17,289 nucleotides of DNA from a bacterium (GTDB lineage Bacteria; SM23-81; DAOVCL01). Every line of letters begins with the position of its first letter. The stretch's first letter is position 1. The notes under the pieces were generated by a model. It searched no databases and was not told the DNA's origin. It saw nothing but the letters and a program-made list of their open reading frames with translations. The stretch lies in the NCBI GenBank assembly GCA_029932675.1, contig JAOZPP010000068.1:1624-18912 (forward strand), given 5' to 3'. Position numbers and translations under genes: made by a program. This document shows, in pieces, positions 1 through 6,392 of the stretch.

Positions 1-516
1 CTGGCCAAGTTTGATGGTGCAGGGAACCTGCTCTGGACAAGAACCCTGGGGGGAACCAACGATGATTATGGGTGGTCTGTGGTAGAGGTCTCTGATGGGG
101 GGCTTGTGGTCACAGGATGGACTGAGTGTTACGGCGCAGGTGGCAAGGATCTCCTTCTGGCCAAGTTTGATAGTTCAGGGAATTTGCTCTGGACAAAAAC
201 CTTAGGGGGTACCGACGATGAAGGTGGGAAGTCTGTGATAGAGGTTTCTGATGGAGGACTTGTCGTTGCTGGAATGACTTATAGTCGCGGTGCGGGTTCT
301 TGGAATCTCCTCCTGGCCAAATTCGATAGTTCAGGCAATTTGCTCTGGGCGAAAACCCTGGGGGGAACCGAGGATGAGGGTGGGGAGTCTGTGGTAGAGG
401 TTTCTAATGTGGGGCTCGTGGTCATGGGTGAGATTGATAATTACGGCGCCGGAGGTTATGATCTCCTCCTGGCCAAGTTTGATGCTAATGGCAATACCTG
501 TATGGGGGAGTTTGTT
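1..516 (+). repeat. Tandem 156-bp in-frame coding repeat
   Basis: The codons for LAKFD recur at 1, 157, 313 and 469, an exact 156-base spacing. There are three full units and a terminal partial unit in the window, and the array probably continues upstream. Each unit has the pattern LAKFD-GNLLW-KTLGGT-DE/D-G-SV-EVSDGGLVV-G-GAG. The equal unit length with only substitutions between copies is typical of propeller or solenoid repeats that expand by duplication. Confidence 0.9.
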
Positions 517-3147
517 ACTCCCACTGTCCAGAGTGTCACTCCTACCATAACCTCCTCCTTCCCCACAGTAACTTCTCCATCGCCAACCATTACCAGTCCA
601 AGCCCGGCAATTACCTCGCCTACTCCAACTATAACCGTGGTGTGTGAAGGGTCGGTTACTGGCGCCATCGCCGGCACGGTGAGGGACTCATATACCCAGG
701 ACCAGATAGGGGGTGTGCTTGTGGAGGCAATGCAGGGAGACAGCACAATCGGTAGCGGTAATACAGTATCAGATGGGCGCTATAGCATTCCCAATTTGCC
801 TGCGGGCACTTACAATGTCCTAATTTCAAAGGATGGTTATGAGACCAAAACGGAAAATGATGTTACCGTAACTGCTGATCAGACAACAACCGTTGATTTC
901 CAGCTAAATAAAAGCCCCTGTGATACTTTACTCTTTGATAATTTTAGCGATGGGAATGATGATGGGTGGCAGAAATACGGTGGTTGCACCTGGGTGGTGG
1001 AAAGTGGAGAATACACCTCCAGCGTGAGTGGAAGCGAGGTCTGGTGTCTCAGTGTAGCTGGTAATTCTGACTGGACGGATTATATCTTGGAGGCCGATGT
1101 CTATGGAGATGCGGGGGGGGACAAGGTAGTGGCGTTTCGGGTTGTTGATGAGAACAACTTCTACGCGGTGAATGTGAGAAGCGACTGGATGGGGGCAGAT
1201 GAGGTTACCCTCTCCAGGATAGTGGACGGAGTCTCTACCGAGCTCACCACTGCTGATTATCCCAGCCAGCTTAATACCTGGTATCATGTCCAAGTCAAGG
1301 TCATCGGTGATAATATAAAGGTCAGGGTAGATGACAATCAGGTTATAGACTACACCGATACGGACACTCCCTTGAATCACGGCCAGGTTGCTGTCACGGC
1401 CTACTCCGGTGCCTACGGAAGCGCCACCGTGCGGTTCGACAATGTGCTGGTGGCAAGGATACCACCACCGGCAAGTTCTTATGCCCCCATCTTCGTCTTC
1501 CGCTCTTGGGAAAGTTGGTTCCCCTGCAATCCATTTTTCAATGGGGTGTTGCCCGAAAACTTCAAGCTCGTAAACCAGGAGAGTCTCTATACTTTACTGA
1601 GTGTCAACGATAAGCTCTCCCCCCCTGTTGCTCAGGTCTATTGTCATGGGCCATATTGCCATAATCAGGAGTGGGTTTATGACTATTGGGTCTATTACCT
1701 CTTTAATGACTACGAACGCCGCGGCCTGCAAATTCACGACAGCGATTGGGAACGGGTGGTTGTCTTTGTGGACAAGAGCACTCAGGAGGTCAACAAAATA
1801 GCCTGTAGTGCCCACGGGTTTGCCAATATCTATGACAAATCTGTGGGCGGAGAGGCTATTAGGGACCATCAGGGGGTATTAGTCGAACTTGGTTCCCATG
1901 CTATGGCCCCGGATATTAACGAAAATGGCGAGCTTGATGACAGCGATGTGACTATCAAAGGCCGTTACCTTCACCTCAAACAGCCAATTGGTGAATTCCT
2001 TGTTCCAGAAGGGGTAAGCGGAGATTACCACTACCGCGTAGCACCCCTGTGCTCCGATTGTAAATCTATTACGGATATGGAGGGCGCCTCTGAGGATTGC
2101 ATTTGGACTGGTCAGTGCCACTGTGAGGGATCTGACACTGTTCATACTTTCAGGGGAAGCAGATTCTGGTGTCTTGTACCAGGAAAGCGAAAGGCTTTTT
2201 TATGTGAGACGAATAAGGAGGCAGGATTGCCCCCAACCCACCCCTGGAACCGGCGACCTGGTGGGAAAAAGTTTAGCTATTATCACCCCTGGGATGTGCT
2301 CAAACAAAAAGATCGTAGTTCAGCTTGGTTCATAGCCAAGGTGACAGGAGCTCCAATAAAGCGGCCAACCCAATGCTTGGTCTATCACTTTGGTGATGGC
2401 CAGGGTGAGTTTTACTTCACAGATTCTCTGGGTAACTTAGCCGTCCCAGCAGACTCTGGATACAACGAGTTAGCTGTCTTTGCGGAAGATGCTGCCCCGT
2501 TCTTTCAGAGTTTCGATTTTGACACCTTACAAGATACCACCTTGGCTGGTGAAGATGGGATCATCAACCTGATTTCTGCTGATTCTGCCTTCTACATTGC
2601 CGTGACAGCCACGGAGGGGCTAAATCCTTCCATAGGCACCTCAGTGGAGTTATATTTAGAGCCAGACAGTCTCCTTTTTTCTTCGGTGACTGACACTGGG
2701 GGCCACTGCCTTTTTACCTGCCAATGTGGTAATCAGTATGCGGTTAAGGCAACAAAAGACACCATAGTGAGATGGGAATATGGAATCAGCGGGGAGCCCG
2801 ATAGTGTGGTTGAGGTCTCCTTTGAATTCCCTTCAGGGGTGTGGGAGCCAACCCACTCTCGGATTGTGCCCAGGGGATTCTCCCTCTCCCAGAATTACCC
2901 TAATCCCTTCAATCCAGTCACCCAGATCAAATATGCTCTGCCCAGGGATTGCTATGTTAAACTGGAGGTTTACAACATCTTAGGCCAGAAGGTAGCGTGT
3001 TTGGTTGATGAGGAGCAGAAGGCGGGATACAAGGTTGCTAGGTGGGATGCGAACGCCTTTTCCAGCGGGATATATTTTTACAGGTTAGAGGTGAAAGGTG
3101 ATGGGTTTGAGGTAACAAGGACAAGGAAGATGGTGCTGTTGAGGTAA
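1..3147 (+). CDS. Large exported multidomain protein with 52-residue repeats and type IX sorting tail (5' truncated by window)
   Basis: The frame is open from base 1, so the true start is upstream; about 1048 residues are visible. The first ~165 residues are tandem repeats beginning LAKFD..GNLLW.KTLGGT at nt 1, 157, 313 and 469, an exact 156-bp (52-aa) period resembling beta-propeller repeats. A Thr/Ser/Pro-rich linker follows (nt ~517-640). Next comes a carboxypeptidase-regulatory-like beta-sandwich (nt ~661-906, GTVRD...GRYSIPNLPAGTYNV), then a concanavalin/LamG-like domain (nt ~931-1455). A cysteine-rich section contains HDSDWERVVVF (nt ~1729-1760), reminiscent of the Vps62/DUF946 group, but this assignment is weak. 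The C-terminus (nt ~2870-3144) is a type IX/Por sorting domain with SQNYPNPFNP and SGIYFYRL. It is inferred to be secreted and attached to the cell surface. The substrate or ligand is not recognisable. Confidence 0.93.
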   Translation: MAKFDGAGNLLWTRTLGGTNDDYGWSVVEVSDGGLVVTGWTECYGAGGKDLLLAKFDSSGNLLWTKTLGGTDDEGGKSVIEVSDGGLVVAGMTYSRGAGSWNLLLAKFDSSGNLLWAKTLGGTEDEGGESVVEVSNVGLVVMGEIDNYGAGGYDLLLAKFDANGNTCMGEFVTPTVQSVTPTITSSFPTVTSPSPTITSPSPAITSPTPTITVVCEGSVTGAIAGTVRDSYTQDQIGGVLVEAMQGDSTIGSGNTVSDGRYSIPNLPAGTYNVLISKDGYETKTENDVTVTADQTTTVDFQLNKSPCDTLLFDNFSDGNDDGWQKYGGCTWVVESGEYTSSVSGSEVWCLSVAGNSDWTDYILEADVYGDAGGDKVVAFRVVDENNFYAVNVRSDWMGADEVTLSRIVDGVSTELTTADYPSQLNTWYHVQVKVIGDNIKVRVDDNQVIDYTDTDTPLNHGQVAVTAYSGAYGSATVRFDNVLVARIPPPASSYAPIFVFRSWESWFPCNPFFNGVLPENFKLVNQESLYTLLSVNDKLSPPVAQVYCHGPYCHNQEWVYDYWVYYLFNDYERRGLQIHDSDWERVVVFVDKSTQEVNKIACSAHGFANIYDKSVGGEAIRDHQGVLVELGSHAMAPDINENGELDDSDVTIKGRYLHLKQPIGEFLVPEGVSGDYHYRVAPLCSDCKSITDMEGASEDCIWTGQCHCEGSDTVHTFRGSRFWCLVPGKRKAFLCETNKEAGLPPTHPWNRRPGGKKFSYYHPWDVLKQKDRSSAWFIAKVTGAPIKRPTQCLVYHFGDGQGEFYFTDSLGNLAVPADSGYNELAVFAEDAAPFFQSFDFDTLQDTTLAGEDGIINLISADSAFYIAVTATEGLNPSIGTSVELYLEPDSLLFSSVTDTGGHCLFTCQCGNQYAVKATKDTIVRWEYGISGEPDSVVEVSFEFPSGVWEPTHSRIVPRGFSLSQNYPNPFNPVTQIKYALPRDCYVKLEVYNILGQKVACLVDEEQKAGYKVARWDANAFSSGIYFYRLEVKGDGFEVTRTRKMVLLR

Positions 3148-3173: not shown

Positions 3174-3199
3174 GCCGTCAGAACCCCGATTCTGACGGC
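3174..3199. terminator. 10-bp perfect hairpin after the first gene
   Basis: GCCGTCAGAA (3174-3183) pairs perfectly with TTCTGACGGC (3190-3199) around a 6-base loop, 27 bases after the stop codon. There is no T-tract after it, so it is either a non-canonical terminator or another member of the palindromic repeats in this spacer. Confidence 0.45.
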
Positions 3200-3286
3200 A
3201 GAGAAAGGGGTAGGTAGAAGGAGGCAGAGAACTGCAGATTTACGCAGATATGTGCTGGTTGGGTTCTGCCCTACCAGGCAAGAGTT

Positions 3287-3413
3287 CTACCGCACTTTAG
3301 TGCGGGTTGGGCCCCTTCAGGGCCCTCTGTGGGGCTAAAGCCCCAAAGAGGTTACCCCCCGCTTTTGCGGGGGTAGAAAAGCTGTAGGGACTCCGCCTTA
3401 GCGGAGTCCCTAC
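3287..3413. repeat. Array of five consecutive palindromic hairpins
   Basis: Five separate inverted repeats follow one another with almost no gap. They are 3290-3305 (7-bp stem), 3309-3325 (6 bp, GGGCCC both arms), 3325-3350 (TGGGGCT/AGCCCCA plus outer CTCT/AGAG), 3353-3375 (one bulged C, TTTT loop) and 3384-3413 (13-bp perfect stem, loop CTTA). Stem sequences differ but the tips are similar: CTTTAG, CTTCAG, CTAAAG, CTTTTG and CCTTAG. This looks like a repetitive extragenic palindrome cluster rather than a terminator, because no T-tract follows. Confidence 0.8.
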
Positions 3414-3464
3414 GAAACAAATACACAAATCATCGGCCTTGAAAAATTTATGCCAATTCATTTT

Positions 3465-3488
3465 CAGTTCATGAATAATTCGGGTCAA
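3465..3488. repeat. Dispersed 24-base repeat, copy 1
   Basis: This 24-base segment, CAGTTCATGAATAATTCGGG followed by TCAA, recurs at 6369-6392 with only three differences, all C/T transitions. It lies at the downstream edge of the hairpin array spacer. It may be the end of a decayed mobile element or a regulatory site; the sequence alone does not decide. Confidence 0.6.
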
Positions 3489-3588: not shown

Positions 3589-4419
3589 GTGCAGTTTTCA
3601 AAGTTATTTTTAGTGTTGTCGTTTCTTTTGATAGTAAGCGTCGAGTTCGAATCATCGCGGGGGGAAGGAGTAGGGGAAACGGATATGAAATTTCTAACGC
3701 CAGAGGAAAAACAACTTGCTAGTCTCATCAATCAGAGGCGGTTCGAGGAAGGCCTTCAGCCCTTTGTGGTTGATTCAGCATTAACCGAGGTAGCAAGGAA
3801 ACATACCGAAGAGATGGTGAGGTTAAATTACTTAAATGCAATTTCTCCAGTTGAAGGGACTGCTTTAGATAGAACACAGAAAGCCTGGATTTCAGACTAC
3901 CACAGCATAGCATTTGTTAGTGAAGAAACTACCGTGGATAAATTGTATAGATCTTTCTTTGATAATGGGAGATGTAGAGGGGAGATACTAAGCGAGAAGA
4001 ACACCCATCTTGGCGTTGGTATAGTGAGAGGTGAGGATCGGATGATAGCTACGGTGCATCTCATCGCAAGGGTGATAGAATTTAATCCAGTAGTAGCCAC
4101 ACTATATTCAGTAGAAGGGGCTAATAGGAGTGAGCTTGCTGAGGAGACATATAGTGGGAGGTCTCAGCAAAAGTACTTGAAATTTGAGATATATGATGGC
4201 ACTGATTTGAATGATCAGAGAAAAAGGAAGTTTTCCCAAGAAATAACCGTTAAACCCGATGGAACCTTTTCGATTTCATTTAGAAATACCAAATACTGGT
4301 GTGAGGGTGACTACTATCTTGCTGTTTGGGCTAAGGATAGAAAAGACGAAGAGTATAAAGTGGCAAATCTCTTGAGGATATCACCTATTAACCCCGAATC
4401 CTCCCCAAAGGAAAAATAG
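3589..4419 (+). CDS. Exported CAP/SCP-domain protein
   Basis: 276 residues. The GTG start is preceded by a purine-rich AAGAAGGGGG about 8 bases upstream. An N-terminal signal peptide is visible (residues ~1-20, MQFSKLFLVLSFLLIVSV). Residues ~38-165 match the CAP (SCP/PR-1) fold: LINQRR.EEGLQPF near 46-60, ARKHTEEMV with His72 and Glu75, and NTHLGVGI with His140, the positions usually lining the CAP cavity. The last ~90 residues form an unrecognised beta-rich segment. Bacterial CAP proteins are extracytoplasmic and their biochemical role is mostly unknown. Unlike both neighbours it has no type IX sorting tail, so it probably stays in the periplasm or leaves by another route. Confidence 0.85.
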   Translation: MQFSKLFLVLSFLLIVSVEFESSRGEGVGETDMKFLTPEEKQLASLINQRRFEEGLQPFVVDSALTEVARKHTEEMVRLNYLNAISPVEGTALDRTQKAWISDYHSIAFVSEETTVDKLYRSFFDNGRCRGEILSEKNTHLGVGIVRGEDRMIATVHLIARVIEFNPVVATLYSVEGANRSELAEETYSGRSQQKYLKFEIYDGTDLNDQRKRKFSQEITVKPDGTFSISFRNTKYWCEGDYYLAVWAKDRKDEEYKVANLLRISPINPESSPKEK

Positions 4420-4585: not shown

Positions 4586-4603
4586 CGCAACCTAAGGGTT
4601 GCG
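4586..4603. repeat. Isolated 7-bp hairpin upstream of the transglutaminase gene
   Basis: CGCAACC (4586-4592) pairs with GGTTGCG (4597-4603) around a TAAG loop, ending about 40 bases before the next start codon. The tip CCTAAGG is like those in the 3290-3413 array, so this may be a solitary member of the same palindrome group. A role in the 5' leader of the next gene is also possible. Confidence 0.45.
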
Positions 4604-4643
4604 GCTACCTAATTCTTCACCTTTTTGCAGTAGAGGAATTAAA

Positions 4644-6011
4644 ATGTTAAGAAAATTCTTTTGCCTGATTGTTTGCGGGTGTCTTATTCTTACTCTGAGC
4701 AGCGGTGTATTTTGCTTCACTGATGTTATCAATGGCACAATGAGTTCTTCTGTCGATGGTGATCAAAGGTATGTACTTAACATTCAAGACTTAGGGGGAG
4801 GAATAGCCTGGATAAAGCTATGGAACTGCAACTACCCAGATTACGCTCTCAACCCACTGACCCAGGATATACAAAACTTTAACAGGGCTTATAGTCGAGC
4901 ACCTAACGATATCCAGGATAATCAAGTGGATGCAGATGGCAACAACTATTGTGTGATAAAATGGGACAACCCTCCAGTGGGCTCGATTACTACTACTTGC
5001 ACCTTTACAGCGAATTTGAATAATGTCTTAAATGGTTTAGAGGACCAAGACACACCATTTCCTCCGACAGGTACTCTTCCCACTCGTTATTTAGAGGCCA
5101 CAGAGTATACTCAGTCAGATAGCCAGGCTATAATTGACCAAGCTCAAGCTGTAACAGATAATGATAGTTTAGAATATCAGGCAGTTATTCACATCATGGA
5201 TTGGATAATTGATAATATCACGTATGGTTCTGGACCTAGTGATGCTCTTTCTGTTCTCCACACCAGGAAAGGGACCTGTCAGGGTTATGCCCATTTAGCT
5301 GTCGCCATGATGAAGGCGGTTGGAATACCAGCTAGATTTGTTGGTGGGGGATCGATTCATCACGCCTACACTATCCCAGGACCTTCGGGACCAATAGGAA
5401 TAAACTGGGGACAAGGGACACACGCCTGGATCGAAGTTTACTATCCTCATGCTGATTGGATACCCTATGATCCTCAATTGTTTTACCACTACCAACACAC
5501 TCATGCATATAAAGGGGGAATAGGACGAGATAGAAAAGACGTTTCAGATGCTAAATGGCAGTATGCTTATTACCCCCCAGAGCCAAATCCGAAGCCAACT
5601 CTTACCGTGCAAGTAAATTCTACAGTAATTAACGACAATATCAATTTTAGTTATCTGGACACCCTTCATACCCCTAACCATCTTGCTGTTGCTGATAGTA
5701 CCGTGGAGATAGGTGTTAATCTTTCAGAAATGATGGGTAAAATGCCCAGGGCCTTCTTCCTGTCCCAAAACTACCCCAACCCCTTCAACCCCATTACCGA
5801 GATCAAGTATGCCCTGCCCAAGGATTGTTGGGTGAGGTTGGAGGTTTACAATATCCTTGGCCAGAGGGTGGCGAGTTTGGTTGATGGAGAGCAGAAGGCG
5901 GGATACAAGACTGTTAGATGGGATGCGAGGGATACTGCCAGTGGTATCTACTTCTACCGGCTGCAGGCAAGTGATTTTGTGCAGGCGAGGAAGATGGTTC
6001 TGATCAGATGA
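4644..6011 (+). CDS. Exported transglutaminase-like protein with type IX sorting tail
   Basis: 455 residues from the ATG at 4644, chosen because AGAGGAAT lies just upstream and a clean signal peptide follows (MLRKFFCLIVCGCLILTLSSG). The upstream in-frame TTG at 4599 would put 15 polar residues before it. The middle is a transglutaminase-like (cysteine protease fold) domain with an apparently intact triad: Cys212 in RKGTCQGYAHLAV, His260 in GTHAWIEVYY and Asp276 in WIPYDPQ. The C-terminus (~371-455) is a Por/type IX sorting domain with SQNYPNPFNP and ASGIYFYRL, closely similar to that of the first gene. Likely a secreted peptidase or cross-linking enzyme on the surface. The substrate cannot be told from the sequence. 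Confidence 0.92.
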   Translation: MLRKFFCLIVCGCLILTLSSGVFCFTDVINGTMSSSVDGDQRYVLNIQDLGGGIAWIKLWNCNYPDYALNPLTQDIQNFNRAYSRAPNDIQDNQVDADGNNYCVIKWDNPPVGSITTTCTFTANLNNVLNGLEDQDTPFPPTGTLPTRYLEATEYTQSDSQAIIDQAQAVTDNDSLEYQAVIHIMDWIIDNITYGSGPSDALSVLHTRKGTCQGYAHLAVAMMKAVGIPARFVGGGSIHHAYTIPGPSGPIGINWGQGTHAWIEVYYPHADWIPYDPQLFYHYQHTHAYKGGIGRDRKDVSDAKWQYAYYPPEPNPKPTLTVQVNSTVINDNINFSYLDTLHTPNHLAVADSTVEIGVNLSEMMGKMPRAFFLSQNYPNPFNPITEIKYALPKDCWVRLEVYNILGQRVASLVDGEQKAGYKTVRWDARDTASGIYFYRLQASDFVQARKMVLIR

Positions 6012-6368: not shown

Positions 6369-6392
6369 CAGTTTATGAATAATCCGGGTTAA
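6369..6392. repeat. Dispersed 24-base repeat, copy 2
   Basis: Matches 3465-3488 at 21 of 24 positions, all differences being C/T transitions. It lies 36 bases upstream of the antitoxin promoter. Confidence 0.6.

Follow-up and report, generated by a model that had tools for sequence, protein, structure and literature searches.

The closest described systems are the REP hairpins and the Y1 HUH transposases associated with them (RAYT/TnpAREP). The substrate of one such enzyme, a group-3 TnpAREP from Marinomonas with the loop TTTA, was examined by SELEX, and T12, T13 and A15 of the loop were essential, position 14 was free, and a swap of the whole stem mattered just moderately (Corneloup et al. 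2021, PMC8266576). Many GTAG REPs have a TY loop, and REP dimers may have additional stem-loops in their spacer (Di Nocera et al. 2013, PMC3733652). A "double-foot" REP form produced by central deletion has been described (PMC6006769). Vertical inheritance of RAYTs has been reported (PMC8049555), as has a patchy RAYT/REP distribution consistent with transfer (PMC6006769).

The DNA analyzed here (the window) is a 17,289-nucleotide stretch from an uncultured bacterium. Five hairpins were located exactly within positions 3285-3413, in the spacer downstream of a gene ending at 3147. The array is very probably made of two neighboring, non-autonomous REP-type mobile elements (REPIN/BIME, mobile as ssDNA) of the Y1 HUH RAYT/TnpAREP kind, and a puzzling hairpin cluster would thereby be accounted for as mobile REP DNA.

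Two dispersed repeats in the array

A preliminary description, made from the window alone, had treated 3287-3413 as one packed set of five inverted repeats. All five were found in the sequence, including the perfect 13-bp stem, but the set includes a TTCTA tag and so starts at 3285, and it consists of two abutting dispersed repeats rather than a single array: element A (3285-3378) and element B (3384-3413).

Element A reads TTCTA-hp1-hp2-hp3-hp4-TAGAA on the plus strand. The 5' tag TTCTA (3285-3289, plus strand) returns inverted as TAGAA (3374-3378) and is conserved in copies across genomes. The plus-strand hairpins are hp1 (CCGCACTTTAGTGCGG, 3290-3305), with the tip CTTTAG, and hp2 (GGGCCCCTTCAGGGCCC, 3309-3325), whose tip CTTCAG is out of register by one base. 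On the minus strand are hp3 (TGGGGCTAAAGCCCCA, 3330-3345), whose tip CTAAAG is CTTTAG on that strand, and hp4 (CCCCCGCTTTTGCGGGGG, 3356-3373), the tip of which is degenerate in the window copy as compared to the family consensus CCCAGCTAAAGCTGGG. The tips of hp1 and hp2 are TTYA and those of hp3 and hp4 are the reverse complement; element A therefore consists of two halves in inverted orientation, each with two hairpins. Within the family, hp2 is of the type GGGCC-CTTYAG-GGCCC, hp3 is GGGGCTAAAGCCCC, and hp4 is of the consensus type. The common CTNNAG-type tip proposed earlier is exact in three of the five window hairpins; the tips CTTTTG and CCTTAG deviate from the consensus.

The boundaries of element A were set from copies with unrelated flanks. 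Dispersed copies that agree in their ends and in the order of their hairpins occur in the window's own genome (G000) and in a sister species (G001). BLAST of the array gave 42 partial matches in its own genome and 24 in the sister species, no match in 39 further relatives, and none in a phage collection. The most conserved module, hp1, served as a probe (core CTACCGCACTTTAGTGC, at most one mismatch), with the reversed pattern as a control. Copies of the core numbered 19 in the own genome, 43 in the sister species, 24 in CSMAG_437, 15 in one Bacteroidales MAG and one to five in six others; two other genomes of the phylum had no copies. The reversed pattern gave 0 in every genome scanned.

The unit of element A has several arrangements: a single REP half, a 52-bp pair, tandem copies, and copies split by other hairpins. 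A form with one hairpin per half and identical ends, TTCTACCGCACTTTAGTGCAGGGT-aaa-ACCCTCAGCTAAAGCTGGGTAGAA, is present in CSMAG_437, CSMAG_2279, CSMAG_1299 and the WOR-3 MAG RS_16_8. As in REPIN/BIME, two inverted REPs thus stand in one unit (TTCTACCGCACTTTAGTGCAGGGT..ACCCTCAGCTAAAGCTGGGTAGAA in several MAGs, with the same ends in the window), at high copy number and in extragenic positions. The GTAG/GTGG (or CGTC) tag is absent from the 5' foot of element A, which has TTCTA in nearly all copies; on the 3' side, GTAG appears solely through the overlap GGTAGAA. Other hairpins are inserted inside A copies at L050, L057, L061 and L129. The L129 copy (3600-3660, minus strand) has another hairpin, CCCGTCCCGACCATGACGGGTCGGG, in the tip of its hp4, and the flanks outside it are those usual for hp4; this may be a loop insertion without target duplication.

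Element B is the hairpin GTAGGGACTCCGCCTTAGCGGAGTCCCTAC (3384-3413, plus strand), with the perfect 13-bp stem, GTAG at its 5' foot and CTAC at its 3' foot. The GTAG (3384-3387) is directly at the foot, in the position of the tag of GTAG REPs (GTAG/GTGG, 0-2 nt 5' of the hairpin). Elsewhere in the own genome, B is a full-length dimer, GTAGGGAC..CTTAG..GTCC-spacer-GGACAGACATAAATGTCTGTCCCTAC, also written GTAGGGACTCCGCCTTAGCGGAGTCC-spacer-GGACAGACATAAATGTCTGTCCCTAC, and the window copy therefore looks like the double-foot form left by central deletion. Adjoining it is the right arm of a MITE-like dispersed repeat (3414-3485, plus strand), which ends in the terminal inverted repeat TGAATAATTCGGGT; the opposite end of the repeat is AACCCGGATTATTCA. 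This arm recurs beside B at six other places, and the terminal inverted repeat AACCCGRATTATTCA has 19 exact sites in the own genome and 10 in the sister species. Element B thus rides within or beside the MITE-like repeat.

Other repeats are present in the window. Ends of the MITE-like repeat are also found at 6376-6390. A further dispersed hairpin, GCCGTCAGAACCCCGATTCTGACGGC (3174-3199, strand not assigned), represents another REP-like family in the spacer of the array, with similar copies in L009, L023 and L073. The sequence AACTGCAGATTTACGCAGAT at 3230-3249 resembles CGCAGATTCACGCAGAT-type phrases beside other REP copies (L009, L024) and is likely another dispersed intergenic repeat. The C-terminal domain of the gene upstream of the array is itself highly repeated: the genes at 1-3147 and 4599-6011 share a sorting-type domain of about 93 aa at the C terminus (YNILGQKV..GIYFYRL), and the end of the first gene, used as a query, gave 157 matches in its own genome.

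Conserved tips and associated transposase genes

Tips were counted in 299 kb of own-genome stretches that were not picked for matches. Hairpins with a stem of at least 7 and a CTTTAG or CTTCAG tip on either strand numbered 12, as compared to 0 in five dinucleotide shuffles, and the excess of such hairpins anticipated for the genome is therefore present in this sample. No other tip class exceeded two hairpins in the sample, so the enrichment is of the tip and not of hairpins generally. Covariation was assessed in hp4, anchored on the 3' arm and tag alone. The 3' and 5' dinucleotides matched in 21/22 copies for CT/AG, 7/9 for TC/GA, 9/14 for CC/GG and 2/2 for TT/AA, and the CT of the 5' tip was retained in 43 of 50 copies. 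Conserved tips with free stems, as first described, are thus borne out; pairing of the stem is selected or maintained and its sequence is not. The conserved CTTYAG tip appears to agree with the TTNA loop rule of group-3 TnpAREP substrates. With T12, T13 and A15 of the loop needed and position 14 free, conserved tips with free stems would be explained, and the tip rule would be one already accounted for by known TnpAREP biochemistry. The preliminary description had set the array apart from ordinary REP copies, which is wrong for one class: group-3 REPs are perfect palindromes with a loop that is read by the enzyme (PMC8266576).

In these genomes, a hairpin of its own kind often borders a Y1 transposase gene (PF01797). 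In the sister species (G001:C42), B-type hairpins (GTAGGGACAGGGCTTTAGCCCTGTCC) flank both sides of a RAYT gene, L071, the arrangement of a REPtron; its product matches NF047646 with an E value of 2e-34. The B-cognate RAYT is not among the three Y1 genes of the window's own genome. For element A, a genome-level Pfam scan did not detect a cognate transposase gene. A profile built from RAYTs identified ORFs between A copies at two loci in other MAGs, L099 (CSMAG_437) and L105 (STD1_36). In L105, copies of GGGCTAAAGCCCAGAGAACCCTCAGCTAAAGCTGGGTAGAA lie close to the RAYT gene on both sides. The two RAYTs share 70% identity, and NF047646 matches them weakly. The L105 protein (P0002) scores below the cut-offs of both NF047646 (E 8e-9) and PF01797 (E 0.006) and retains the HUH motif (NHYH) and the catalytic Y (GYIIGN), aligned with those of RAYTs. 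In the L099 protein, the second His of HUH reads Y (NHYY), and this gene copy may be decayed. A hairpin with a TAGAA tag (CATCGGCTAAAGCCGTGTAGAAG..CTTCTACC) lies inside the L099 frame (1580-1630), which stays open. An AlphaFold model of the A-cognate RAYT, from a two-row alignment, had a pLDDT of 37.

The association between tips and enzymes was followed on a tree of 62 RAYTs, with flanking by CTTTAG/CTTCAG hairpins as the trait. The trait changed 4 times, as compared to 10.8 in shuffles (0/500). Of the 12 RAYTs with such tips, nine group in a single 13-row clade (SH-aLRT 98) despite unrelated stems, and in all nine cases the REP carries GTAG at its foot and has its T-rich tip on the same strand as GTAG. 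The loop reading seen in vitro with group-3 TnpAREP is thereby supported on evolutionary grounds in many RAYT lineages. The A-cognate RAYT falls outside this GTAG-RAYT clade. At the RAYT loci L066-L084 (G000, G001, G002 and G003), each genome has several distinct RAYT genes, many of which are flanked by a hairpin particular to them, for example GGTGGCAGAATTGGGATTCTGCCACC and AACCTCCCGCAGGTTTCAAACCTGCGGGAGGTT; this variety of REP systems within one small phylum is striking.

These observations suggest how the array could have arisen. Each hairpin would be, or derive from, a recognition site of a Y1 HUH single-strand transposase (RAYT/TnpAREP), which would bind the folded strand, read a short 5' tag and the TTYA loop (CTTYAG tip), and cleave and rejoin ssDNA beside the hairpin. 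With loop and tag fixed by the enzyme and a stem that just has to pair, tips would be conserved and stems would vary. Element A would be two inverted REPs (REPIN/BIME), each half with two hairpins, and element B a GTAG REP, cut down in the window to its double-foot hairpin. We infer that the window copies themselves were moved by RAYTs of these kinds. The idea that the hairpins are a target for IS200/IS605-like elements survives with regard to the kind of enzyme, since Y1 genes are flanked by these hairpins, but not as a passive target; REP hairpins are better seen as moved by the transposase.

Alternative explanations and spread

The two off-consensus tips among the five, the tag TTCTA of element A in place of GTAG/GTGG, the lack of a detected A-cognate RAYT in G000 and G001 and of a B-cognate one in G000, the possible decay of the L099 gene and the lack of a clean empty site all count against a mobile REP origin. 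The alternative that fares best, though unlikely, is a function co-opted by the host, in which REPs, irrespective of a mobile origin, are kept to stabilize 3' ends, to stop transcription or to serve as gyrase/IHF sites. Such roles are known for REPs in other bacteria (PMC6006769), and the placement of the copies is suitable: 66 of 72 distinct A copies (loci in ten MAGs) lie outside ORFs of at least 100 aa, which cover 86% of the own-genome sample. The fifth hairpin is also terminator-like by score, on the minus strand. However, terminator-like matches occur at chance level (1 as compared to 0.9 expected), the flanking genes have none on their plus strand, and the copies are degenerate, with a patchy distribution between the sister species. 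A terminator was accordingly rejected, in agreement with the preliminary description.

A structured non-coding RNA or 3' UTR element, in which TTCTA/TAGAA would close a cloverleaf-like bundle and a protein would read the tips, is very improbable. The fold is strong: a 161-base stretch folds at -84.9 kcal/mol, as compared to -54.7 +/- 3.9 in shuffles (z -7.75; 0/200), and the TTCTA/TAGAA ends of element A pair in the predicted fold, closing a multiloop in the MFE structure. Such an RNA would also be consistent with covarying stems, fixed tips and largely intergenic copies. However, the opposite strand folds equally well, because the hairpins are palindromes, and DNA hairpins predict the covariation just as well. 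An Rfam scan of the window gave 0 matches, with no gathering score reached; the variable forms of A (half, 52-bp pair, tandem, interrupted) are unlike a fixed RNA architecture, and copies flank transposase genes. The data can be explained without a structured RNA. Least credible of all is a passive cruciform hot-spot, in which replication strand-switching perfects palindromes with no dedicated enzyme; it suits the near-perfect stems and the central-deletion form at 3384-3413 but predicts neither the fixed loop, the fixed tag and their constant strand relation nor transposase genes bounded by these hairpins.

The evidence for mobility is comparative and includes the hairpins inserted inside A copies. 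At an orthologous intergenic site with flanks about 90% identical, an A copy stands within a mosaic of about 200 bp in the sister species and is missing in the own genome; no clean empty site with exact excision boundaries emerged from this comparison of a mosaic spacer. For the CAP-domain gene (3589-4419) that follows the array, the sister species yielded no match. Over their full 24+24 bases, the ends of A are common to the own genus (including the sister MAG, labeled Zixibacteriota), WOR-3 MAGs and further MAGs, and Omnitrophica has a single A copy with the extended left half. Near-identical ends across phyla suggest either inter-phylum transfer or binning errors. In Bacteroidales, an exact 19-mer match covers the hp1 part alone; six arm bases are free once tip and palindrome are fixed, so convergence is plausible and the match was not used as evidence of transfer.

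Neither G000 nor G001 contains the A-cognate RAYT, and in the rest of the genomes searched full matches were confined to the two source MAGs; the absence holds within assemblies of 90-97% completeness. The A copies of the genus therefore appear to be orphans, and those in the window are now probably immobile remnants. We tentatively suggest, at somewhat less than even chances, that A is a REP/RAYT lineage of its own, with a divergent RAYT below the NCBIfam/Pfam cut-offs, TTCTA replacing GTAG and the same TTYA loop, which crossed phyla (this phylum, WOR-3 and Omnitrophica) and persists without its enzyme. Such a lineage, if true, would contradict the view of RAYT/REPIN systems as vertically inherited. 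Confirmation of A would add a REP class with a different foot tag and RAYT lineage and signs of inter-phylum spread, and would bear on REPINs as strictly vertical residents.

Comparison with known systems

IS200/IS605 elements share with these repeats the Y1 HUH enzyme, subterminal hairpins and a probable ssDNA chemistry, but the hairpins here are dispersed and gene-less, with no moving IS unit. TIRtrons/TIRYT (PMC3733652) likewise have a Y1 transposase between non-GTAG inverted repeats, some with internal palindromes; element A is unlike them in its REP-type loop conservation and high copy number. It resembles REPIN/BIME (PMC3116915; HH dimers, PMC3733652) in having two inverted REPs with conserved ends, and departs from them in having two hairpins of the same tip rule per half, in a four-hairpin unit of about 94 bp; a 52-bp two-hairpin form of A occurs in other MAGs. 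Element B and the L071 RAYT fit GTAG REPs and the group-3 TnpAREP/RAYT fully (Marinomonas REPMb, loop TTTA; PMC8266576), with a short perfect palindrome, a TTYA loop, GTAG at the 5' foot and a REP-flanked RAYT. Element A differs from these in its TTCTA foot and its divergent RAYT outside the GTAG-RAYT clade. Element B is thus an ordinary GTAG REP, and element A is a REPIN-like variant with a different tag and a divergent RAYT.
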